Shown here: positions 1 to 11,424 of the stretch, piece by piece
How positions within the stretch are numbered: the first letter of the stretch is position 1
Layout of the letters: every line of letters begins with the position of its first letter
DNA from: Methanobrevibacter sp.
GTDB lineage: Archaea > Methanobacteriota > Methanobacteria > Methanobacteriales > Methanobacteriaceae
DNA length: 38,448 nucleotides
Assembly (NCBI RefSeq): GCF_017432245.1
Contig: NZ_JAFRJO010000048.1
Location: 1-38,448 of the forward strand
Direction: 5' to 3'
Translations under genes and position numbers: made by a program
The notes under the pieces: model-generated
Told to the model about the DNA's origin: nothing
What the model saw: only the letters and a program-made list of their open reading frames with translations
Database searches by the model: none

Positions 1-837
1 CTCTGGACAAATTCTAGCTCCTCCGTAGTATATTACTTCATTAGGATCTCTTTCTTCAATAACTGTATCAAAGATGGAAATCTCCTTATCAAATGTACTG
101 AATGGAGCTGCAATATAAAATGGAATGTCAAATCTTTTAGCTGCAAGAGCTACCATAAATGAACCAATCTTGTTTGCAATACCATCATAAGCCACCCTAT
201 CTGCACCGATTACAACCTTATCAATCTTTCCGATTGACATAAGATAACCGCTTGCAACATCTGGAATCAGTTTTACAGGAATTCCTTCCTGTTGCATTTC
301 CCAAACGCTTAAGCTTGCACCTTGTCCTCTTGGACGGGTTTCATCACAAATCACTTGAATATCTTTTCCTTGATTGAATGCAGAACGGAAAACACCTAAT
401 GCAGTACCATAATCTACACAAGCAAGTGCACCAGCATTACAATGGGTTAAGACTGTATCTCCATCATCAATAAGTTCAGCACCATATTCACCTATTGCAA
501 GATTTGTATTGATGTCCTCACCAGCCATTGCCATTGCTTCATTAAGCATATTGTCTGCTTTCATGACTCTGTCTACCGCCCACATTAAATTGACTGCTGT
601 AGGTCTTGCATTTTTCATCTCTACAGCGACCTTTTCCATATCTTCCCCAGCAATCTGAGCAAGTGCCATACCGAAAGCAGCTGAAACACCTATAGCAGGG
701 GCTCCACGAACAACCATTGTCTTGATTGCATCTATTACTTCCTGGTAAGTGCTGCAATAGACATAAGTCAATTCATCAGGCAATTTGGTTTGATCTATAA
801 GCTTTAATTTATTGTCTTCCCATTCTAAAGTTCTCAT
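1..837 (-). CDS. mtnA: S-methyl-5-thioribose-1-phosphate isomerase, 3' end missing
   Basis: Isomerises 5-methylthioribose-1-phosphate to the ribulose form (methionine salvage); the fold is shared with eIF-2B alpha subunits and archaeal ribose-1,5-bisphosphate isomerase. I translated 279 codons from the ATG at 835-837; the gene then runs off the left edge, so roughly 30-60 C-terminal residues are missing. The N-terminus RTLEW and LIDQTKLP, and VVRGAPAIG at about 43-50, are typical of MtnA rather than of the ribose-bisphosphate isomerase. THCNAG carries the expected catalytic Cys133 and GADRV the catalytic Asp213; their 80-residue spacing matches that of characterised MtnA enzymes. ETRPRGQGA (166-174) is also present. 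In organisms without a full salvage pathway the natural substrate may be a related pentose phosphate, which the sequence cannot decide. Confidence 0.9.
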   Translation of the reverse strand, partial: MRTLEWEDNKLKLIDQTKLPDELTYVYCSTYQEVIDAIKTMVVRGAPAIGVSAAFGMALAQIAGEDMEKVAVEMKNARPTAVNLMWAVDRVMKADNMLNEAMAMAGEDINTNLAIGEYGAELIDDGDTVLTHCNAGALACVDYGTALGVFRSAFNQGKDIQVICDETRPRGQGASLSVWEMQQEGIPVKLIPDVASGYLMSIGKIDKVVIGADRVAYDGIANKIGSFMVALAAKRFDIPFYIAAPFSTFDKEISIFDTVIEERDPNEVIYYGGARICPE

Positions 838-1041
838 AATAATCACATGATAAAAATAATTGATTCTATAATAAAATTGTTAAAATACAATAAAATATTG
901 GTCTTTTTTAAATAAATAAGTTATTATGAAAATAGTTTAAAGAGAATATGAGAACACCCTCCAAATAATCAGATAAAGAAAATTAATAAAGAGCATACAC
1001 AGAAGAACTAATAAAAACTTCAGCCCATTACAAATTAACTC

Positions 1042-3129: not shown

Positions 3130-4020
3130 TTAAAAGTGAGACTGAGGAGCATTTCCTATGTGATGGTCTTCATGTTTCTTACCAGGAATTCCATAAGCAT
3201 CTGCTCTACATTGAGTACATGCTCTGAATACTGGAAGATATTCTTCAACATCACTACGTGCCTTTTCAATCTCTCCACATCCAGGTCTTGGATAATCAGC
3301 CATCTTGTTTAATGGAATGAGAGGCAAGACATTTACTAAGTCTGCACCGCATTCTTTTACGGTTTTAGCGATTTCTACAATATGCTCGTCATTTAAACCT
3401 GGAATAAGAACAATATTAACCTTAACGACTACACCAAGGTCAGTAATCTTTTTGATTCCTTCAAGTTGGTTTCTAGAGAGAATTTCAGCTGCTTCAAGTC
3501 CTTTGTAAGCTTTTCCTTCATAAACAATGAATCCGTTGATATCCTTTAGGATTTCAGGATCAACTGCATTTACTGTAACAGTTACGGTATTTACACCAAG
3601 TTCCGCAATTTTTTCTGCATATTTTGGAAGCAAAAGACCATTTGTACTCATACATTTGATTAAGTCTGGCTTTACCTCATTGATTTTTTCAAAGAACTCA
3701 AATGTAGCTTCGTTAGCTAATGAATCACCAGGACCTGCTACACCTACAACAGTGATTGCACTGTCTTCAGTTACATTCAAGACATGTTCCACTGCAGCAT
3801 CTGCATCCATGATGGAACCTGCAACACCAGGCCTGTCCTCTTCAGTATTAATTGATCTTATACAGAAATTACATCCAATATTACATTTAGGAGCAATAGG
3901 TACGTGAACTCTTCCAACCTTATCATGCAATTTTTCATTATAGCATGGATGCACTTTTGTAATGTGTGCAAATTTTGCACCTTTATGACTTCCTCCACAA
4001 GTTAAATCTTTTTTAGTCAT
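3130..4020 (-). CDS. nifB: NifB-family radical SAM protein (8Fe-9S-C cluster synthase)
   Basis: NifB uses SAM radicals to fuse two 4Fe-4S clusters and insert carbide, giving the 8Fe-9S-C precursor of nitrogenase cofactor. At 296 residues this is the short archaeal form without a NifX-like tail. Visible motifs are HPCYN with Cys26 (cluster ligand), the radical-SAM CNIGCNFC (Cys46, 50, 53), GVAGPGDSL (93-101), STNGLLLP (125-132), NVVL-type strand and LIPGLND (205-211), and a C-terminal CTQCRADAYGIPG with Cys268 and Cys271. All expected cluster-binding cysteines are present, so it should be active. No nitrogenase genes are in view. It lies downstream of, and on the same strand as, the MCR-activation cluster but has its own promoter region with a palindrome and its own terminator. 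Identity is sure; that it serves MCR activation here is inference. Confidence 0.93.
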   Translation of the reverse strand: MTKKDLTCGGSHKGAKFAHITKVHPCYNEKLHDKVGRVHVPIAPKCNIGCNFCIRSINTEEDRPGVAGSIMDADAAVEHVLNVTEDSAITVVGVAGPGDSLANEATFEFFEKINEVKPDLIKCMSTNGLLLPKYAEKIAELGVNTVTVTVNAVDPEILKDINGFIVYEGKAYKGLEAAEILSRNQLEGIKKITDLGVVVKVNIVLIPGLNDEHIVEIAKTVKECGADLVNVLPLIPLNKMADYPRPGCGEIEKARSDVEEYLPVFRACTQCRADAYGIPGKKHEDHHIGNAPQSHF

Positions 4021-4152
4021 AGTATTACCTCAACACAATATTTTAATTAATAGTCATTTAATTAACTTAATTTTTTCTCCAATTTAATTTTTCTCACTAC
4101 AATTTACAAAATTTATTCGTTAAATTCATTCATTTACGCTTAAACTTATAAC

Positions 4153-4169
4153 TATTGTTATTAACAATA
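4153..4169. promoter_or_regulatory. palindrome upstream of the nifB TATA-like box
   Basis: TATTGTTA-T-TAACAATA is a perfect 8-bp inverted repeat around one base. It directly abuts TTATAAGTTTAA (minus strand, about 4137-4150), a candidate nifB TATA box. The spacing suits a repressor blocking TBP/TFB. It does not match the NrpR nitrogen-regulator operator GGAA-N6-TTCC. Confidence 0.4.
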
Positions 4170-4315
4170 TAGTATTTAAAACTTCCTATTTGTTTCTAAT
4201 ATATACGAACAAACTATTGAAAATTACGAACCGTTTTAAAAAAACAATGAAAAATTGGACAAAAAATTAAAACAACCCTATAAAAATGAAAATTTATGAT
4301 TTGAAAAAATAAATG

Positions 4316-4339
4316 GATTAAATCTAAAAAGATTTAATC
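4316..4339 (-). terminator. terminator of the mmp operon
   Basis: GATTAAATCT (4316-4325) and AGATTTAATC (4330-4339) form a perfect 10-bp stem with an AAAA loop, 16 bases after the mmp17 stop. On the minus strand a T-rich run follows. Confidence 0.65.
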
Positions 4340-4355
4340 AATATTTGAATTAAAT

Positions 4356-4922
4356 TTAATCCCATGTTTTAGGAGTATTCAATTCTACAATATATCCTTC
4401 TGCCTTTTCAACCCATTCATCTTTAATGAGCTCATCAGTAGCTATAATGGAAACGATATCTCCACGGGAAATGTCCTTCATAATCTTGAATCCTTCAGGA
4501 ACTATTCTGAATATTGCATCATAAATCCTTCTCTTAAGGTTTTCATGAGGATCATCTACAACCAAATCAGACACTTCATGCTCCCCTTTCATGTGAATGA
4601 CATATCTGCTTGGCTGATGAACGTTTTCCCTACCGTTGGTTTTCCAAAGGGTTCTTAGAATATTTGGAAGGTAGTTCTCATTATCTATTAGAACAACAGT
4701 GGTATCATCATCCGCTTCATAATTTACTTTAGCAACTTCCTTTAATGTAATGTGCTGGGAAGTCTTTCTCATCTTTATAGCTATAATGAAGCATACTTCA
4801 TCCGGATTGACATAAGCGCGCATGTCATCAATTGAAGGCGGCAAGACCAAATCCTGCAAGATTTGCCTAATAATCATATCGTAGACTTTTGCTCCTTCAG
4901 GGTCATTTGATTCAATATACAT
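4356..4922 (-). CDS. mmp17: methanogenesis marker protein 17 (MCR activation complex component)
   Basis: A 188-residue soluble protein matching methanogenesis marker 17 in length and sequence style (N-terminal ESNDPEGAKVYD, internal VIHMKGEHEVSDLVVDDPHENLK split over 107-131, C-terminal LNTPKTWD). Members of this family are found only in methanogens and relatives. Mmp17 has been reported as a subunit of the ATP-driven complex that reductively activates methyl-coenzyme M reductase, together with McrC, Mmp3, Mmp7 and the ATPase component A2. It is the last gene of the mmp3-6-5-15-17 operon, 80 bases after mmp15, and is followed by a 10-bp stem-loop. The ATG is preceded by GTGAT. It has few cysteines (one at about 44), so it is unlikely to ligate a cluster by itself. 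Confidence 0.88.
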   Translation of the reverse strand: MYIESNDPEGAKVYDMIIRQILQDLVLPPSIDDMRAYVNPDEVCFIIAIKMRKTSQHITLKEVAKVNYEADDDTTVVLIDNENYLPNILRTLWKTNGRENVHQPSRYVIHMKGEHEVSDLVVDDPHENLKRRIYDAIFRIVPEGFKIMKDISRGDIVSIIATDELIKDEWVEKAEGYIVELNTPKTWD

Positions 4923-5002
4923 ATAATCACTCTACTTAAAATAATAAATAAAAATGAAAATAGGATAAAAATATTTGAAATATTAAAATCCAATCATATT
5001 AT

Positions 5003-6238
5003 TTATTCATGTCTATTTCCCATACCAGATACAAGCAATGCTGCACCTACTGCACCAATATGCTGTGAGTATTCAGGTACGATAACTTCAATTCCACCTA
5101 AGGTTTCACTTACTGCTTCAACAAGTCCGGAAATTAAACTGGTTCCACCTACTTGGATTAAAGGTTCACGAATGTCAATTTCCTGTAATTGCTGTTCATA
5201 AACCTGTTCTGATACAGAGTGACATGCAGCAGCTGCTACATCTGCCTTAGATCCTCCAGCAGCAAGAGTGGTTACCAAGTCTTGAATACCGAATACAATA
5301 CAGTATGAGTTAAGCATAGCCTTTCTCCAATCACCTTGCACAGCAAGAGGTCCGAGTTCTGTAATGTCTACATCTAACCTTCTTGAAGTCATGTCCAAGA
5401 ATCTGCCTGATGCACCTGCACAGATACCACCCATAGTAAAGTTATCAGGAATACCATTGTTTACGGTAATTACCTTGTTGTCCATACCACCGATATCGAG
5501 TACTGTAGCTTCACCTTTTTGGCAATCAGCCAAGTATACTGCACCTTTTGCGTTTACAGACAATTCCTCTTGGATAAGTTCAGCTCCAAATTCCTGACCC
5601 ATAGTGAATCTACCGTAACCGGTAGTTCCTATACCATCAACATCATCCCATTTGTAGCCAGTGCCTTCAAATGCTTCTGCAGCTGCAGTTTGAGCAGATG
5701 CAATGATGTCTTTTGTGGAAGTCCAACCGGTTCCGATAACCTTGTTGTTTTCCATAAGAACTGCCTTTGTAGTTGTTGAACCTGAGTCAAGTCCAAGGGT
5801 AAGTCCTTCTTGCTTTTCACGAGCAAGAATGCTTCTACGTGTAACAGTGGTAGCCAATGCTTCCATACGGATAAATAGCTCATCCGCTTTTGTCCTTTCA
5901 GTAAAGGAATATGTTACTACTGGAATACGTGTATTGTTTTGAATGAAACGTCTTACTTCGTTTCTGACCAATGCACCTTCTGCACATCTGAAACAGGTAG
6001 CAATGAATACTGCATCAGGTTTGCACTTACCTTCAACAATAGACATAGCTCTTGCAATCATAAGCTTTAAGCTTGAACTTTGAGCAGAGAAACCGAATTT
6101 CTCATAAGCTTCATTAATGTAATCCAAATCAATTTCAGGAAGAATAATTTCTGCTCCAAATTTTAAAGCTGCCTTTTCAATTTCCTTTTGGATACCACTA
6201 TATTCGGTACCGCAAGAAACCAATGCAATTTGTACCAT
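5003..6238 (-). CDS. mmp15: methanogenesis marker protein 15, HgdC-like ATPase
   Basis: A 411-residue protein whose C-terminal half is an ASKHA-fold ATPase like HgdC/BadF, the Fe-S archerases that drive electrons to very low potential using ATP. Phosphate loop DSGSTTTK (151-158) and DIGGMDNK (248-255) are present. The two cysteines that bind the dimer-bridging 4Fe-4S cluster in HgdC are conserved: Cys273 in [10 protein letters not shown] and Cys313 in CIVFG, 40 residues apart. The N-terminal 140 residues carry CFRCAEG (82-88) and look like a separate domain. I start at the ATG at 6236-6238, one base after the mmp5 stop, because AGGAGG lies eight bases upstream; an upstream GTG/ATG-like extension of eight residues has no SD. 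It is presumed to supply low-potential electrons for MCR activation or F430/cluster chemistry, which is inferred from family and context. Confidence 0.9.
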
Positions 6239-6239
6239 T

Positions 6240-6746
6240 TTATTTTCCTCCTTTATTTCCAATTGGTTCGCCTAAAACATCACTGTCTCCTTCAAGGTCT
6301 CCTCCGCCACCAGGCAAGGAATCAAGGAAATCCATGATTTGATTTACCATAAGTCTTGTTCCATCTTCATCATCAGGATAAACCACTTCCAAGACAGGAA
6401 TGTCCTTTTTACGTAAACAGAAAATAGATAATTCATTTGTTCTTGCGCATCCTACACAACCAAAGCCAAATGGAGCGCCATCAACAATAATTGCTGCTTC
6501 TGCTGCATCTATAAGAGGGCCAATAATGGACATTCTTCCACGAACTCCTGAAGGCACTTCAATAGCTGCATACTTTAATCCGTTAATTGGATCTTCTTCT
6601 GTAATGTTCATTGGAGGAGAATCAATCTCCGGGTCTTTAATCTTTTGCCTTATTTGTTTTTGAAGAGCTAAAGGAGTATGACCTTTTCTCTCAATCAAGT
6701 CAGCTAGAACCAATGAATTTGGTGGATAAATAGCTACTTTTACCAT
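6240..6746 (-). CDS. mmp5: methanogenesis marker protein 5
   Basis: A 168-residue methanogen-specific protein of the marker 5 family. Conserved features are [20 protein letters not shown] (4-23), PSGVRGRM (65-72), and [13 protein letters not shown] with Cys97 and Cys100, plus Cys110, a likely metal or Fe-S site. The tail after about 145 is Gly/Asp-rich and probably disordered. It is translationally linked to mmp15: its last codons (GGK, TAA) contain the mmp15 SD. It starts 67 bases after mmp6. The biochemical role is not established; the operon suggests MCR maturation or activation. Confidence 0.87.
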
Positions 6747-6813
6747 AATATCATCCTCTTAATATAATCAAAGAAAACTTTTTGCAAACAATCCCATTTA
6801 GAAAGTTTTCTTA

Positions 6814-7293
6814 TTATTTATCATCCTCTTTTTTATTTTCTTCTTCTTCTAAAATCTCTTTGAAGTAATCAACAGAAACAGGTTCCTTTTTTTCTATTTC
6901 CACTTCTCTCGGATTCTTTAAAGCTTCTCCAACATAATCAAGAATTCTAAATTCCTTTTCCATTTGGTGGAAACCTTCTCTTGGTCCGTATCTGTGACCT
7001 CTGCATCTTCTTGGGTCACCTGGAGCAAAACCTCTTTCCTTAGTAAAAATTCCATAAGGGTCTAATTTACGGAGTTCACGAATAGCTTCTCTCACATATT
7101 CATCCTTTCCACTAATCATAGCCCCATAACAAGTCCATTTGATTGTAATAGGCAAATTCAACATATGAAGGAAGTTCACTACCTCACTTTCACTTACATT
7201 TGCCTTTGAACTTAAAATGATCATCCTTGTTGAAACTTCCGGATCCATATCCTCTTTACCTAAATCGGGGGTTATACATAAATTTGCAGGCAT
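6814..7293 (-). CDS. mmp6: methanogenesis marker protein 6
   Basis: A 159-residue methanogen-specific protein of the marker 6 family. Typical segments are [20 protein letters not shown] and [13 protein letters not shown] (an ACT/ferredoxin-like alpha-beta pattern), then [20 protein letters not shown]. The last 25 residues are Glu/Lys-rich and probably disordered. An ATG two codons upstream (7297-7299) is only one base from the SD AGGAGG (complement 7301-7306), while the ATG at 7291-7293 is seven bases away, so I start there. It follows mmp3 by 11 bases, with the SD overlapping the mmp3 stop, so the two are translationally coupled. Function is unknown beyond MCR-related context. Confidence 0.86.
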
Positions 7294-7304
7294 AATCATT
7301 CCTC

Positions 7305-8858
7305 CTAATCATCATCCTCGTATACTTCATGAATATAAAGAGTGCTTCCGTCCTTAAGCTTGTTCAAGCCTTCAATGTTTCCAACAACTTCACCGACAAC
7401 ATTTGTAGCTGAGAAAGGCTCACCGGTAGGTCCGAAATCAGTGGTGTCAATGGTTCTTATACCAATAAGTCCCACATTCTTCTTAGACATGTTAGTTACA
7501 CCTATCTCTCCTGCTTTCATAATGTCAGTTGGATTGTTTTCAGGAATGAGTCCCTTGGATTCATCGTTATCACCATTGAACATGAACATGTTCATGTCAG
7601 GAACTGCAAAGTAAACCTTCAAAGTTCCAACAGGCTTTTCAGCAAGACCAGTGATTTTCTCAAGATACCATCTGGTTCTTGGAGCCTTATCGGTTAATTT
7701 GATCTTAAGGAGCTCATCGCTTGCAAGACCAAAGGTAGTCACTTCACCTGCTTCTATGATGCCAACAGTGCTTTCAGGCTCTTGGGTTACGACAATTGCA
7801 TCATCAGCATCGTTACCTGTTCTTACATGAGTGATGCCTAAGGATGCGAGTTTTTCTTCCGCCTCTTTTTGAGTCATCATCATAAGCATGATTCTGTCAG
7901 GACTGCTTCTTACAGTAATGAAATCCCCCTCTTTTGCTATATCAAACAATTCCATTCCTTGCTTGACGGTAGCTAAATTAGTGTGGGTTTCAGCTCTTAC
8001 TCTGTCTTCTCTATAAATGTAAACTCTACCTTTACCGAATCCATCATTTCTCAAGGTAACTGTTCCTCTTTTACGTTCAGTTATCTCTTCCTTTTCCTTA
8101 GTTAAACCAGTCAATTCATAGAACCCGACAAATGAGTTAGATTCAAAGCTGACCTCTATCTTGTCATTCCTAATGAGTGAAAACAAGTGTTCAACAGATT
8201 TAGGGGAATTGAAGTTAGGTTCAAAAAGAACATAGGTGAACAATTGGTTTCCTTCCTCCAAGACTTCATCCAAGTTTGAACCACCAGTGCTCTCTCTAAC
8301 TGTACTGCGCTCAATTACAGGTTCAATAGCTAGGATTTCATCATCATCAGTAAGGGAGAACAATGTTTTCCTTCCACCTATAACCCTTGCAAAGACTCCA
8401 CGATCACTGTATTTTGGAACACCATAAACGTTCTTGTGGTCATCCTTAACAAAGATTATGTGAGTAGCCTCAGCTGAAAATCCGGATAAGCTAATCAAGA
8501 CCTCATTGTCGAAATATGCAAATTCCTCATGTGAAGGTTCAAAATTAGAGCTTACAGGACCTATAGCCACTTCATTAGATGTTTCCCAACGGACATTATT
8601 AGAGATAAACTGAGAATAGTTTTCCTTGAAGAAATCAGTTAAAGGTTGTGATTTTTCAGAAACTTCCAATTCAATGAGAATACTTCCCTTAGGTGTTTTG
8701 ATCTTATATTTGAGAATGTTACTTTGTATTTCACTTTCTCCCTTGATAAGACAAACGATACTTCCTTTCTTGTAAGGAGCATTTGAAATTTCAATTGCCT
8801 CCTTGATGGTAGAACCTTCAGGAATATCCACATCTTCTCCATTAATTTTAATTAGCAT
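7305..8858 (-). CDS. mmp3: methanogenesis marker protein 3 (UPF0288), MCR activation complex component
   Basis: First gene of the operon; 517 residues, the usual family length. The N-terminus ([22 protein letters not shown], about 2-23) is a ubiquitin-like/TGS-type domain. A central beta-rich part and a C-terminal half with [16 protein letters not shown] (about 313-328) and [14 protein letters not shown] (about 422-435) follow. The C-terminus [22 protein letters not shown] resembles a cyclophilin-like beta barrel, as noted for this family. Mmp3 has been reported as part of the MCR activation (component A3a) assembly. SD AGAGG is eight bases before the ATG. A promoter candidate lies at about 8932-8942 on the minus strand. 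Confidence 0.9.
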
Positions 8859-9095: not shown

Positions 9096-9779
9096 TTATT
9101 CATAGAATTTACCTAAGAAGTCTTTCATTCTTTGATTGTCTGATGAGAATACCTCTTCAGGTGAACCTTCCTCTACAATAACTCCACCATCCATGAAGAT
9201 AATGTTATCAGACACATTACGAGCGAAATTCATCTCGTGGGTAACAATTACCATTGTCATGTGTTCTGCAGCCAAATCCTTGATTACCTGCAAGATCTCA
9301 CCAGTAAGCTCGGGGTCAAGTGCAGAAGTAGGTTCGTCAAAGAACAGAATGTCAGGATCCATACAAAGTGCCCTTGCAATTGATACCCTTTGCTGCTGTC
9401 CACCAGAGAGTTCAGAAGGATATGCATCTTCCTTATCGGACAATCCCATCTTTTTAAGCAAGTCCCTCGCATGAGCGTAAACCTCATCTTTATCTCTTTT
9501 TTGAACCCTTATAGGTGCATTGACAATATTCTTCATTACAGAATGATGTGGGAACAGATTGAAATTCTGGAACACCAAACCAAAGGTTCCATCAAAATTA
9601 ATCTCTCCACTGTCTTCAGTTTCCAAATCTGTAATGCATCTAAGCAATGTAGACTTACCTGATCCAGATGGTCCAATAATGGACAATACCTCTCCCTTTT
9701 CAACATTAAAAGAGATATCCTTTAAAACTACATTGTCTCCAAAACTTTTCTTTAGATTTTTAACTTCCAATAAACTCAT
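9096..9779 (-). CDS. polar amino-acid ABC transporter, ATP-binding protein
   Basis: Cytoplasmic ATPase of the GlnQ/HisP type, 227 residues. Walker A is GPSGSGKS (36-43), the Q-loop is [11 protein letters not shown] (69-79), the signature LSGGQQQR (124-131), Walker [13 protein letters not shown] (144-155) and the switch His181 (VTHE). The stretch between Walker A and the Q-loop ([11 protein letters not shown]) is about a dozen residues shorter than in typical GlnQ, a small deletion outside the catalytic motifs. It is the last gene of a three-gene set: binding protein, permease, ATPase, with only 10 bases between permease stop and this ATG. The motif FNLFPH is characteristic of amino-acid importers. 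The exact substrate cannot be read. Confidence 0.93.
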
Positions 9780-9789
9780 GATATCTCTC

Positions 9790-10443
9790 CTAAGTGTCGT
9801 AATAATCCAATCTTTTCTCGAAACGTTCCATTACAAATGCCACAAGTGCATTGAACAGATAATAGAATCCACCTGCAATCAGCAATGCTGAAATGGACGC
9901 TTCAGCTGCTGCAATCTGTTTTGCAACAGTGAACATTTCCGGAATAGCAAGCACGAATGAAAGTGAAGTATCCTTTACAAGAGTGATGACCTCGTTGGTA
10001 ATTGAAGGAAGCACAATTTTCACTACTTGAGGCAATACAATGATGAAGAATGTCTCTAACCTATTGTAACCCAATACCTGTGCAGCTTCATACTGTCCAT
10101 TTGGAATGGATTCGATTCCTCCACGGAAAATCTCTGCAAAGTAGGCTGCATAGTTAATGGTAAATGCAATGATAACTGCAACCATCCTGAAATCTCTTGA
10201 AAGAGTCATTCCGAAAATATAGTATGGCCCAAAGAACACCACAATCAATTGCAGCATCAATGGAGTTCCTCTCATAATTGAAATATATGCTTTCATAATC
10301 CATTGCAATGGCTTGAAGCTACTCATTCTTCCTGCAGCAACAGCTAATCCAAGTGGAATTGAAAATAGCAATGTAAGTAAGAATATTTCAATGGAGGTTC
10401 CCATACCCCATAATAATTCTTCTAAAATTTTACTTAATAACAT
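9790..10443 (-). CDS. polar amino-acid ABC transporter, permease
   Basis: A 217-residue inner-membrane protein of the HisM/GlnP family with about five membrane helices. The cytoplasmic EAA loop is recognisable as [20 protein letters not shown] (about 128-147), the contact site for the ATPase encoded next. [19 protein letters not shown] (about 57-75) is the conserved family N-terminal signature. SD GGAG lies eight bases before the ATG. It probably works as a homodimer, since no second permease gene is present. It is separated from the binding-protein gene by 156 bases containing a strong stem-loop. Confidence 0.93.
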
Positions 10444-10553
10444 TTAACATTCTCCAAAATAAAGATAATAAACTTAAATAAATTATTTAAATAATATAAA
10501 ACAAAAAATAGCTTGTTTTAAATAATTTATTTAAAATTATTAAATTAAAGAAT

Positions 10554-10589
10554 AAAAAAAGTTTATACATAACGAATTATGCATAAACT
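10554..10589 (-). terminator. 13-bp stem-loop with TTCG loop and T-tract between binding-protein and permease genes
   Basis: On the minus strand AGTTTATGCATAA, loop TTCG, TTATGTATAAACT, then a run of T (complement of 10554-10560). Twelve Watson-Crick pairs and one G-U form the stem; the plus-strand mismatch at 10567/10582 becomes a wobble only in the minus RNA. It starts 11 bases after the binding-protein stop. It is inside the operon, so it probably gives partial termination or protects the upstream mRNA so that the binding protein is made in excess. Confidence 0.75.
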
Positions 10590-10599
10590 AAGAATTTAT

Positions 10600-11424
10600 T
10601 TATTTAGTAATGAGAGAACCTGGAACACCAAATTCATCGTATTTTTCTGCGATTTTTGCAACAGTTCCGTCTTCAAACATTTCGTCTAAAGTAGCTTGAA
10701 TTTGGTCTCTTAATTCTTCATTGCCTTTTTTGAAACCTACACCATATTGTTCAGAAGAGATTTCTTCATCTAATATTTTGTATTGGTCACTGCCTTTTTG
10801 GCTGATTTGGTATTGAGCTACACCAATATCGATTGCAACTGCGTCACAAGCACCGGATTCTAAGTCCATGAATGCAGTGTTATAGTCAGCAATTTGAGTT
10901 AAGGAATCAAAGGTGTCTGCTAAAGGTTTTTGATCTCCTTCAAGAGCTGCTAAAGCAGATGAATCTTTTTGGGTTTCTACGATTTTACCTTCTAAATCAT
11001 CTAAATCATCGATACCAGAATCGGTTTTTACAACAATAACTTGTTTGTTATCAATGTATGGTTCAGACCAGGTGTACTCGTCTTCTCTACCGTTGATGGT
11101 AAATCCGTTCCAAATACAGTCAATAGAACCAGAGTCTAATTCACTGTCTTTAGCATCCCAGTCTATTGGCTGTTTTACTAAAGTCCAGTTATTTCTATCA
11201 CAAACTTCTTGAGCTAAGTCTAAATCAAATCCCACATATTCCCCACTGTCATCTTTGTATCCGTATGGAGGGAATTCTGCGTCGAAACCAACAACTAAAG
11301 TGCTGTCATCGTTATCAGCAGTTGCTTCATCACCTAAGAAATCGAATAAACCAGCACTGGATGCTCCGATTACTAAGAATGCTAATAATGCAACCCCTAA
11401 TATAATTCCTATTTTTTTATTCAT
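10600..11424 (-). CDS. polar amino-acid ABC transporter, extracellular binding protein
   Basis: A 274-residue family-3 solute-binding protein. Residues 1-24 are a signal peptide or membrane anchor (positively charged start, hydrophobic GIILGVALLAFLVIGASSAG); there is no lipobox cysteine, so it is anchored by the uncleaved helix or released into the pseudomurein space. The mature part has the family pattern VVGFDAEFPPYGYKDDSGEY (about 44-63), GFDLDLAQEV, DCIWNGFTI and YGVGFKKGNEEL. The SD GGTG is five bases before the ATG. It is the first gene of the importer. A short acidic linker (GDEATADNDDS) separates the anchor from the binding domain. Ligand unknown; a polar or basic amino acid is expected. 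Confidence 0.93.
   Translation of the reverse strand: MNKKIGIILGVALLAFLVIGASSAGLFDFLGDEATADNDDSTLVVGFDAEFPPYGYKDDSGEYVGFDLDLAQEVCDRNNWTLVKQPIDWDAKDSELDSGSIDCIWNGFTINGREDEYTWSEPYIDNKQVIVVKTDSGIDDLDDLEGKIVETQKDSSALAALEGDQKPLADTFDSLTQIADYNTAFMDLESGACDAVAIDIGVAQYQISQKGSDQYKILDEEISSEQYGVGFKKGNEELRDQIQATLDEMFEDGTVAKIAEKYDEFGVPGSLITK

Follow-up and report, generated by a model that had tools for sequence, protein, structure and literature searches.

Here we describe a gene neighbourhood in which nifB, encoding a radical-SAM (S-adenosylmethionine) enzyme, follows a set of marker (mmp) genes connected with the activation of methyl-coenzyme M reductase (MCR). It lies on contig NZ_JAFRJO010000048.1 of Methanobrevibacter sp.; the stretch analysed (the window) comprises 38,448 nucleotides and belongs to a 1.69-Mb metagenome-assembled genome (MAG) of 104 contigs that is 86.9% complete. 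A search with NCBIfam profiles identified six genes on the minus strand, mmp3, mmp6, mmp5, mmp15 and mmp17 and then nifB:

7305..8858, minus strand: mmp3, subunit of the MCR activation complex (TIGR03268, 586 bits; PDB 8s7v chain J, E = 1.8e-91)
6814..7299, minus strand: mmp6, DUF2102 (TIGR03272, 152 bits)
6240..6746, minus strand: mmp5, DUF2112 (TIGR03271, 237 bits)
5003..6262, minus strand: mmp15, marker protein with an acyl-CoA-dehydratase-activase (archerase) domain (TIGR03286, 719 bits; TIGR00241, 325 bits; PDB 1hux, 4eht)
4356..4922, minus strand: mmp17, subunit of the MCR activation complex (TIGR03291, 180 bits; PDB 8s7v chain G, E = 4.7e-18)
4021..4355, minus strand: A+T-rich mmp17-nifB spacer of 335 bp, with a stretch conserved among congeners (alignment of three congeneric spacers)
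3130..4020, minus strand: nifB, single-domain radical-SAM enzyme of 296 amino acids (TIGR01290, E = 2.5e-82; PDB 7jmb, 7bi7 and 7jma, E ~1e-129)

All five Mmp proteins score above the curated NCBIfam cut-offs. The original prediction, made from the sequence alone, described one tight minus-strand operon with a complete NifB as the next gene. The five mmp genes are tightly spaced (gaps from mmp3 to mmp17 of 5, 67, -23 [an overlap] and 80 bp) and NifB is, by its motifs, complete, but nifB itself begins 335 bp past mmp17.

We surveyed 96 Methanobacteria genomes (at least 90% completeness requested, the window genome included) and scored the two genes as adjacent when mmp17 lay upstream of nifB, on the same strand and within 3 kb. 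NifB was found in 95 of the 96 genomes and Mmp17 in 94. The adjacency, whose recurrence the original prediction had proposed to check, holds in 90 of the 95 genomes that carry at least one of the two genes and in 15 of 18 genera, which is more than chance. Five genomes are exceptions: in three (G007, G008 and G022) NifB sits at a contig end, at the contig start in G022, which is also without Mmp17, and in two genomes of one genus (G081 and G082) the genes are on different contigs, with ~2 kb or more of flanking sequence. In one further genome (G078), NifB, Mmp17 and Mmp15 are unscorable, the expected block lying outside the sequence examined, while Mmp3, McrC and an Mmp7 are present; we therefore set it aside as a counter-example, that is, as a methanogen without these three proteins. 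All six genes occur in order in 28 of 35 first-copy nifB loci (34 fetched plus the window), and in two genomes (G001 and G013) mmp17 and nifB are the only members in view. The conserved block in Methanobacteria reads DUF2117-mmp2-mmp3-mmp6-mmp5-mmp15-mmp17-nifB-mtnA, with mmp2 in most loci examined, though not in the window's genus.

The NifB of the window carries the radical-SAM CX3CX2C motif (C46, C50, C53) and the cysteines that we take to be ligands of the precursor clusters, namely C26 in the N-terminal HPC motif, the central C123, and C268 and C271 in the C-terminal CXXC. All seven fall in invariant columns of an alignment of ten NifB sequences. Against TIGR01290 the protein scores 276.9 bits, below the curated cut-off of 343.65, and the match spans model positions 9-282 of 441, leaving the C-terminal part without a match. 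We do not treat this cut-off as defining, because it is reached by none of the 96 Methanobacteria genomes, including G093, whose mmp17-adjacent NifB contains, letter for letter, a 283-residue matched stretch of the solved NifB entries; it is reached in 217 of 390 genomes of a second phylum, which we take to be Halobacteriota. Those solved entries (PDB 7bi7, 7jma and 7jmb), presumably Methanothermobacter NifB, are orthologous to the window NifB, with the same single radical-SAM domain and the same cysteines, and in G093 nifB likewise follows mmp17 directly; G093, however, has six NifD-family matches, where the window genome has CfbD only. The bacterial two-domain NifB, a NifB-NifX fusion, shares the radical-SAM core and the cluster cysteines, but the window protein is without its C-terminal NifX-like domain. 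Codon comparison with a congener that has one NifD-family match only (G019) gave a nonsynonymous divergence (dN) of 0.038 against a synonymous divergence (dS) of 1.01 (dN/dS ~0.04), which indicates strong purifying selection on NifB. Overall, the protein looks complete and is predicted to synthesize [8Fe-9S-C] clusters from SAM.

A nitrogenase had not been seen beside this nifB, and the statement holds for the assembled genome, in which no nif operon was found. Neither nifD, nifK, nifE nor nifN is present in the assembly, the sole PF00148 match (E up to 10) being CfbD (522 bits to TIGR03282). The strong PF00142 (NifH-family) match is CfbC (438 bits, cut-off 402; 382 bits with the NifH model, below its cut-off of 394), so that a nifH distinct from cfbC was not identified in the 86.9% complete MAG; seven further PF00142 matches, one above the Pfam cut-off, are partial and weak. 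Because the MAG is incomplete, this absence of nitrogenase is an absence in the assembly only. The genus is represented by eight more genomes. Seven of them give no PF00148 match or a single one, and G024 gives three, including a nitrogenase-like pair with a NifH-like gene next to it; the D-type subunit best matches PDB 9fmg (E = 1.3e-68), a methylthio-alkane reductase (MAR; PMC12552129). The nif operon is reported as absent from Methanobrevibacteraceae clade C and Methanosphaera (PMC13135261).

These data bear on the possibility that the client for which NifB persists is a nitrogenase or a related enzyme (nif or a MAR-like HDK) whose genes fall in the part not covered by the 87% assembly or have recently been lost. 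The incompleteness of the MAG, the MAR-like genes of the closely related G024 and the 35 of 96 Methanobacteria genomes with two or more PF00148 (NifD-family) matches speak for such a client. The other 61 of the 96 have at most one match, yet NifB is present in all 60 of those that are scorable, with mmp17-nifB adjacency in 59; the low match counts in seven of the eight congeners, where the eighth has MAR-like genes, and the dN/dS of NifB likewise argue against it. We consider this explanation very improbable.

Beyond the class, a scan for NifB yielded at least 570 confirmed NifB stretches, from which 80 named loci were kept. Two arrangements besides mmp17-nifB tie nifB to marker or MCR genes, namely nifB-mmp2 and A2-mcrC-x-x-nifB. 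In two Methanosarcinaceae loci (L136 and L137), mmp2 begins 30 and 42 bp after nifB (521.5 and 486.6 bits, cut-off 365), and among the 30 NifB loci with the highest scores in the second phylum (L178-L205), 18 have an mmp2-type gene (AIR-synthase-like) directly after nifB; these 30 are top scorers rather than a random sample and were matched to a one-sequence mmp2 profile rather than the NCBIfam model. In Ca. Methanohalarchaeum thermophilum (L141, 2-18407), whose mcr locus is unusual, the order is mcrB, mcrG, mcrA, DUF1638, A2, mcrC, a NarI-like gene, an HdrD-like gene and nifB, all on one strand, short unassigned open reading frames excepted. In a few searches of the open-access PMC literature, which did not extend to the nifB-mmp2 linkage, we found no published report of nifB linkage.

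NifB and McrC also occur together across genomes. In the 390 genomes of the second phylum, 229 have both, 21 NifB only, 3 McrC only and 137 neither, and thus NifB is present in 229 of 232 McrC carriers. From the set of 80 named genomes we also checked 45 for McrC: it exceeds the cut-off in 30, two give only a weaker, Mmp7-like match and 13 give neither. Of these 13, four are bacteria, two are archaea in which nif-type genes adjoin nifB, and seven are MAGs labelled methanogen or Euryarchaeota.

McrC and Mmp7 matter here as the probable recipients of the cluster. The MCR activation complex of Methanococcus maripaludis (PDB 8s7v, 8s7x, 9h1l), in which MCR activation is ATP-dependent, holds three L-cluster-like [8Fe-9S-C] clusters bound by McrC and Mmp7, the carbide needing further proof; the ligands are H49, H118, C55 and C12 of McrC and C143, H84 and possibly C90 of Mmp7, and the cluster termed FeSIII lies at the Mmp7-Mmp17 interface (PMC12176620). 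The original prediction had placed Mmp3 and Mmp17 in a complex with such clusters, and both subunits are encoded here, but the clusters sit on McrC and Mmp7 and not on Mmp3. Mmp7 is encoded elsewhere in the window genome (L168) and keeps H84, C90 and C143. A congener (G019) has an McrC with all four ligands (C11, H47, C53, H116), and in alignment the ligand positions are kept in five of five McrC sequences, that of L141 included, and three of three Mmp7 sequences; the L141 McrC and the G078 Mmp7 were missed by a strict motif search and have the ligand residues in the alignment. NifB, Mmp5, Mmp6 and Mmp15 do not appear among the co-purified proteins named in the consulted part of the structural report (PMC12176620).

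NifB might instead serve another client, such as F430 synthesis by CfbCD, with the mmp linkage being incidental to a larger methanogenesis cluster. In L141, nifB lies ~3 kb before cfbE-cfbD-cfbC-cfbB, and mmp2 and mtnA are conserved nifB neighbours as well. Nevertheless, CfbD is stated to be without [8Fe-9S-C] clusters (PMC12176620), and the cluster-bearing complex has its Mmp7 in the window genome with conserved ligands, which makes a client of this kind highly improbable.

We consider it highly likely that the window NifB is a working enzyme, retained chiefly to make [8Fe-9S-C] (L-type) clusters for the MCR activation complex. The arrangements that tie nifB elsewhere to mmp2 or to A2 and mcrC, the co-distribution of NifB with McrC and the conserved ligands of the client proteins all point the same way. 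The earlier suggestion that the NifB product feeds MCR activation is supported comparatively by the same conserved linkage, co-distribution and ligands, while from gene linkage to cluster supply and delivery we infer. Of the observations named beforehand as refuting that suggestion, two were looked for and not seen: the incomplete MAG yielded no nif operon, and the adjacency proved to be conserved. In the mechanism we envisage, SAM-dependent carbide insertion on NifB would fuse two [4Fe-4S] clusters into an 8Fe core, and the product would pass to McrC and Mmp7, whose three 8Fe clusters would relay low-potential electrons to F430; the A2 ATPase, Mmp3 and Mmp17 would make up the rest of the complex.

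Neither this function of NifB nor its essentiality is new: supply of [8Fe-9S-C] by NifB for MCR activation has already been proposed and NifB essentiality claimed (PMC12176620), a NifB homologue was listed among methanogen-specific genes in 2011 (PMC3087415), and it has been noted that NifB may have another function (PMC8809328). Our results add genomic support, from three gene arrangements, to the published proposal that NifB and a nitrogenase-type 8Fe cluster act in methane formation as well as in nitrogen fixation, and offer a reason for the retention of NifB in methanogens without nitrogenase. NifB and its neighbours thereby become candidate choke points for methanogenesis, and Mmp2, Mmp5, Mmp6 and Mmp15 candidates for cluster delivery and electron supply.

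Several observations weigh against a role of NifB in MCR activation. McrC, a part of the M. maripaludis complex, has no counterpart that we could find in the 86.9% complete window MAG, and the nearest NifB in the tree (G024, 99%) comes from a genome whose MAR-like genes represent a possible other client. In genus g12 (two genomes) nifB does not adjoin mmp17. NifB without McrC occurs in 21 of the 390 second-phylum genomes, ten with strong NifB scores and 11 with weak ones (~1e-57 to 1e-83), the latter of which may be a divergent NifB-like enzyme; McrC without NifB occurs in G186, G317 and G404, and the genomes are not independent samples. A Fisher p value was set aside as evidence, since it takes no account of kinship. 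The A2-mcrC-x-x-nifB arrangement comes from one genome only, with mcrC beside nifB in one of the 80 named loci, and its recurrence in G141 and G174 was rejected, as these have no nifB at their mcr loci. Finally, 77 of the 80 named loci are without mmp, mcrC or A2 in the flanks examined, which were sometimes short; ten of the 77, eight of them bacterial, have nif-type or Cfb-type genes nearby.

This scarcity elsewhere, together with the fact that Methanobacteria are one clade and that mmp17-nifB profile-match distances range from 44 to 623 bp (mostly 44-54 bp in genera g15-g18), also fits an adjacency that is simply the inherited gene order of the class and silent on function. We regard that account as improbable, since two further, different arrangements tie nifB to mmp2 or to A2 and mcrC, and the mmp17-nifB pair persists in G001 and G013, the remaining block genes being out of view.

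Genomes with two nifB copies show that the mmp17-linked gene is retained even where a separate NifB is available to another likely client. In genus g11, presumably Methanosphaera, two genomes (G070 and G079) hold a second nifB beside nitrogenase-like genes, whose D-type subunits best match 9fmg, while the K-type subunit of G070 best matches the partner chain of the same entries. In the tree these second copies group together, separately from the 11 mmp17-linked g11 copies (support 99/98). The methylthio-alkane reductase system (PDB 9fmg) offers a precedent in which a NifB-type enzyme, NifB/MarB, is thought to supply Fe8S9C to a non-nitrogenase client (PMC12552129). The window genome differs from it in that no Mar-like D or K subunits were found in the assembly, and we infer McrC and Mmp7 to be the client instead. 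In all, nitrogenase-like gene sets were seen in six Methanobacteria loci (L068, L077, L080, L082, L083 and L084); the D-type subunits of L068, L077 and L080, the last from the window's genus, best match 9fmg, and L068 and L077 have a second nifB. In addition, G001-G005, G087 and G089 have two PF00148 matches each, one of which is a full-length NifD-family protein of ~400 amino acids.

More tentatively, and with considerable doubt, the block from DUF2117 to mtnA could be read as one pathway to build, load and power the 8Fe clusters of MCR activation, with NifB making the cluster, MtnA salvaging the SAM by-product, Mmp17 serving docking or delivery, Mmp2, Mmp5 and Mmp6 acting in transfer, and Mmp15 being an ATP-driven donor of low-potential electrons, a part likened to that of NifH in nitrogenase. 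The role of Mmp15 is suggested by its place in the block, its activase domain (TIGR00241, above the cut-off) and two cysteines, C281 and C321, which align with C127 and a second cysteine of 1hux, presumably [4Fe-4S] ligands; both motifs are present in 29 of 29 Mmp15 sequences. Ferredoxin is named as a possible physiological electron donor in the structural report, in which the word Mmp15 is absent (PMC12176620). For Mmp17, docking or delivery is suggested because it sits at the outermost cluster site on Mmp7.

MtnA may salvage the radical-SAM by-product 5'-deoxyadenosine. An MtnA-type gene lies 3' of nifB, on the same strand and within 4 kb, in 28 of the 35 loci (the NCBIfam model confirms it for the window, L062 and L072); neither of the second nifB copies (L068 and L077) has such a neighbour in view. 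In the window the genes beyond nifB are:

1715-2758: alcohol dehydrogenase, between nifB and mtnA
1..846, minus strand: mtnA, methylthioribose-1-phosphate isomerase, truncated at the window edge (TIGR00512, 307.6 bits, cut-off 279)

Because of the 335-bp gap and a spacer stretch that is conserved in two congeners, nifB probably has its own promoter here, separate from the mmp genes. The stretch, at 4155-4231 and conserved in three congeners, contains a GTTCGTA word repeated twice, and a palindrome, TTGTTAATAACAA, is found in it in both the window and G024; it is possibly a promoter with a regulator site. An NrpR-type operator 5' of nifB was rejected as a candidate, the search for GGAA-N6-TTCC, which we take to be the NrpR operator motif, having found no site inside the mmp17-nifB spacer even with one mismatch.

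At the other end of the block, a polar-amino-acid ABC transporter lies 5' of mmp3 at 9096-11424, a position occupied in many other loci by DUF2117 and mmp2, and an ABC gene is also found 5' of mmp3 in G019 and G024. Within the block, a second, diverged Mmp5-like gene stands between mmp6 and mmp5 in eight of 12 g11 loci, one of which was confirmed as PF09885.

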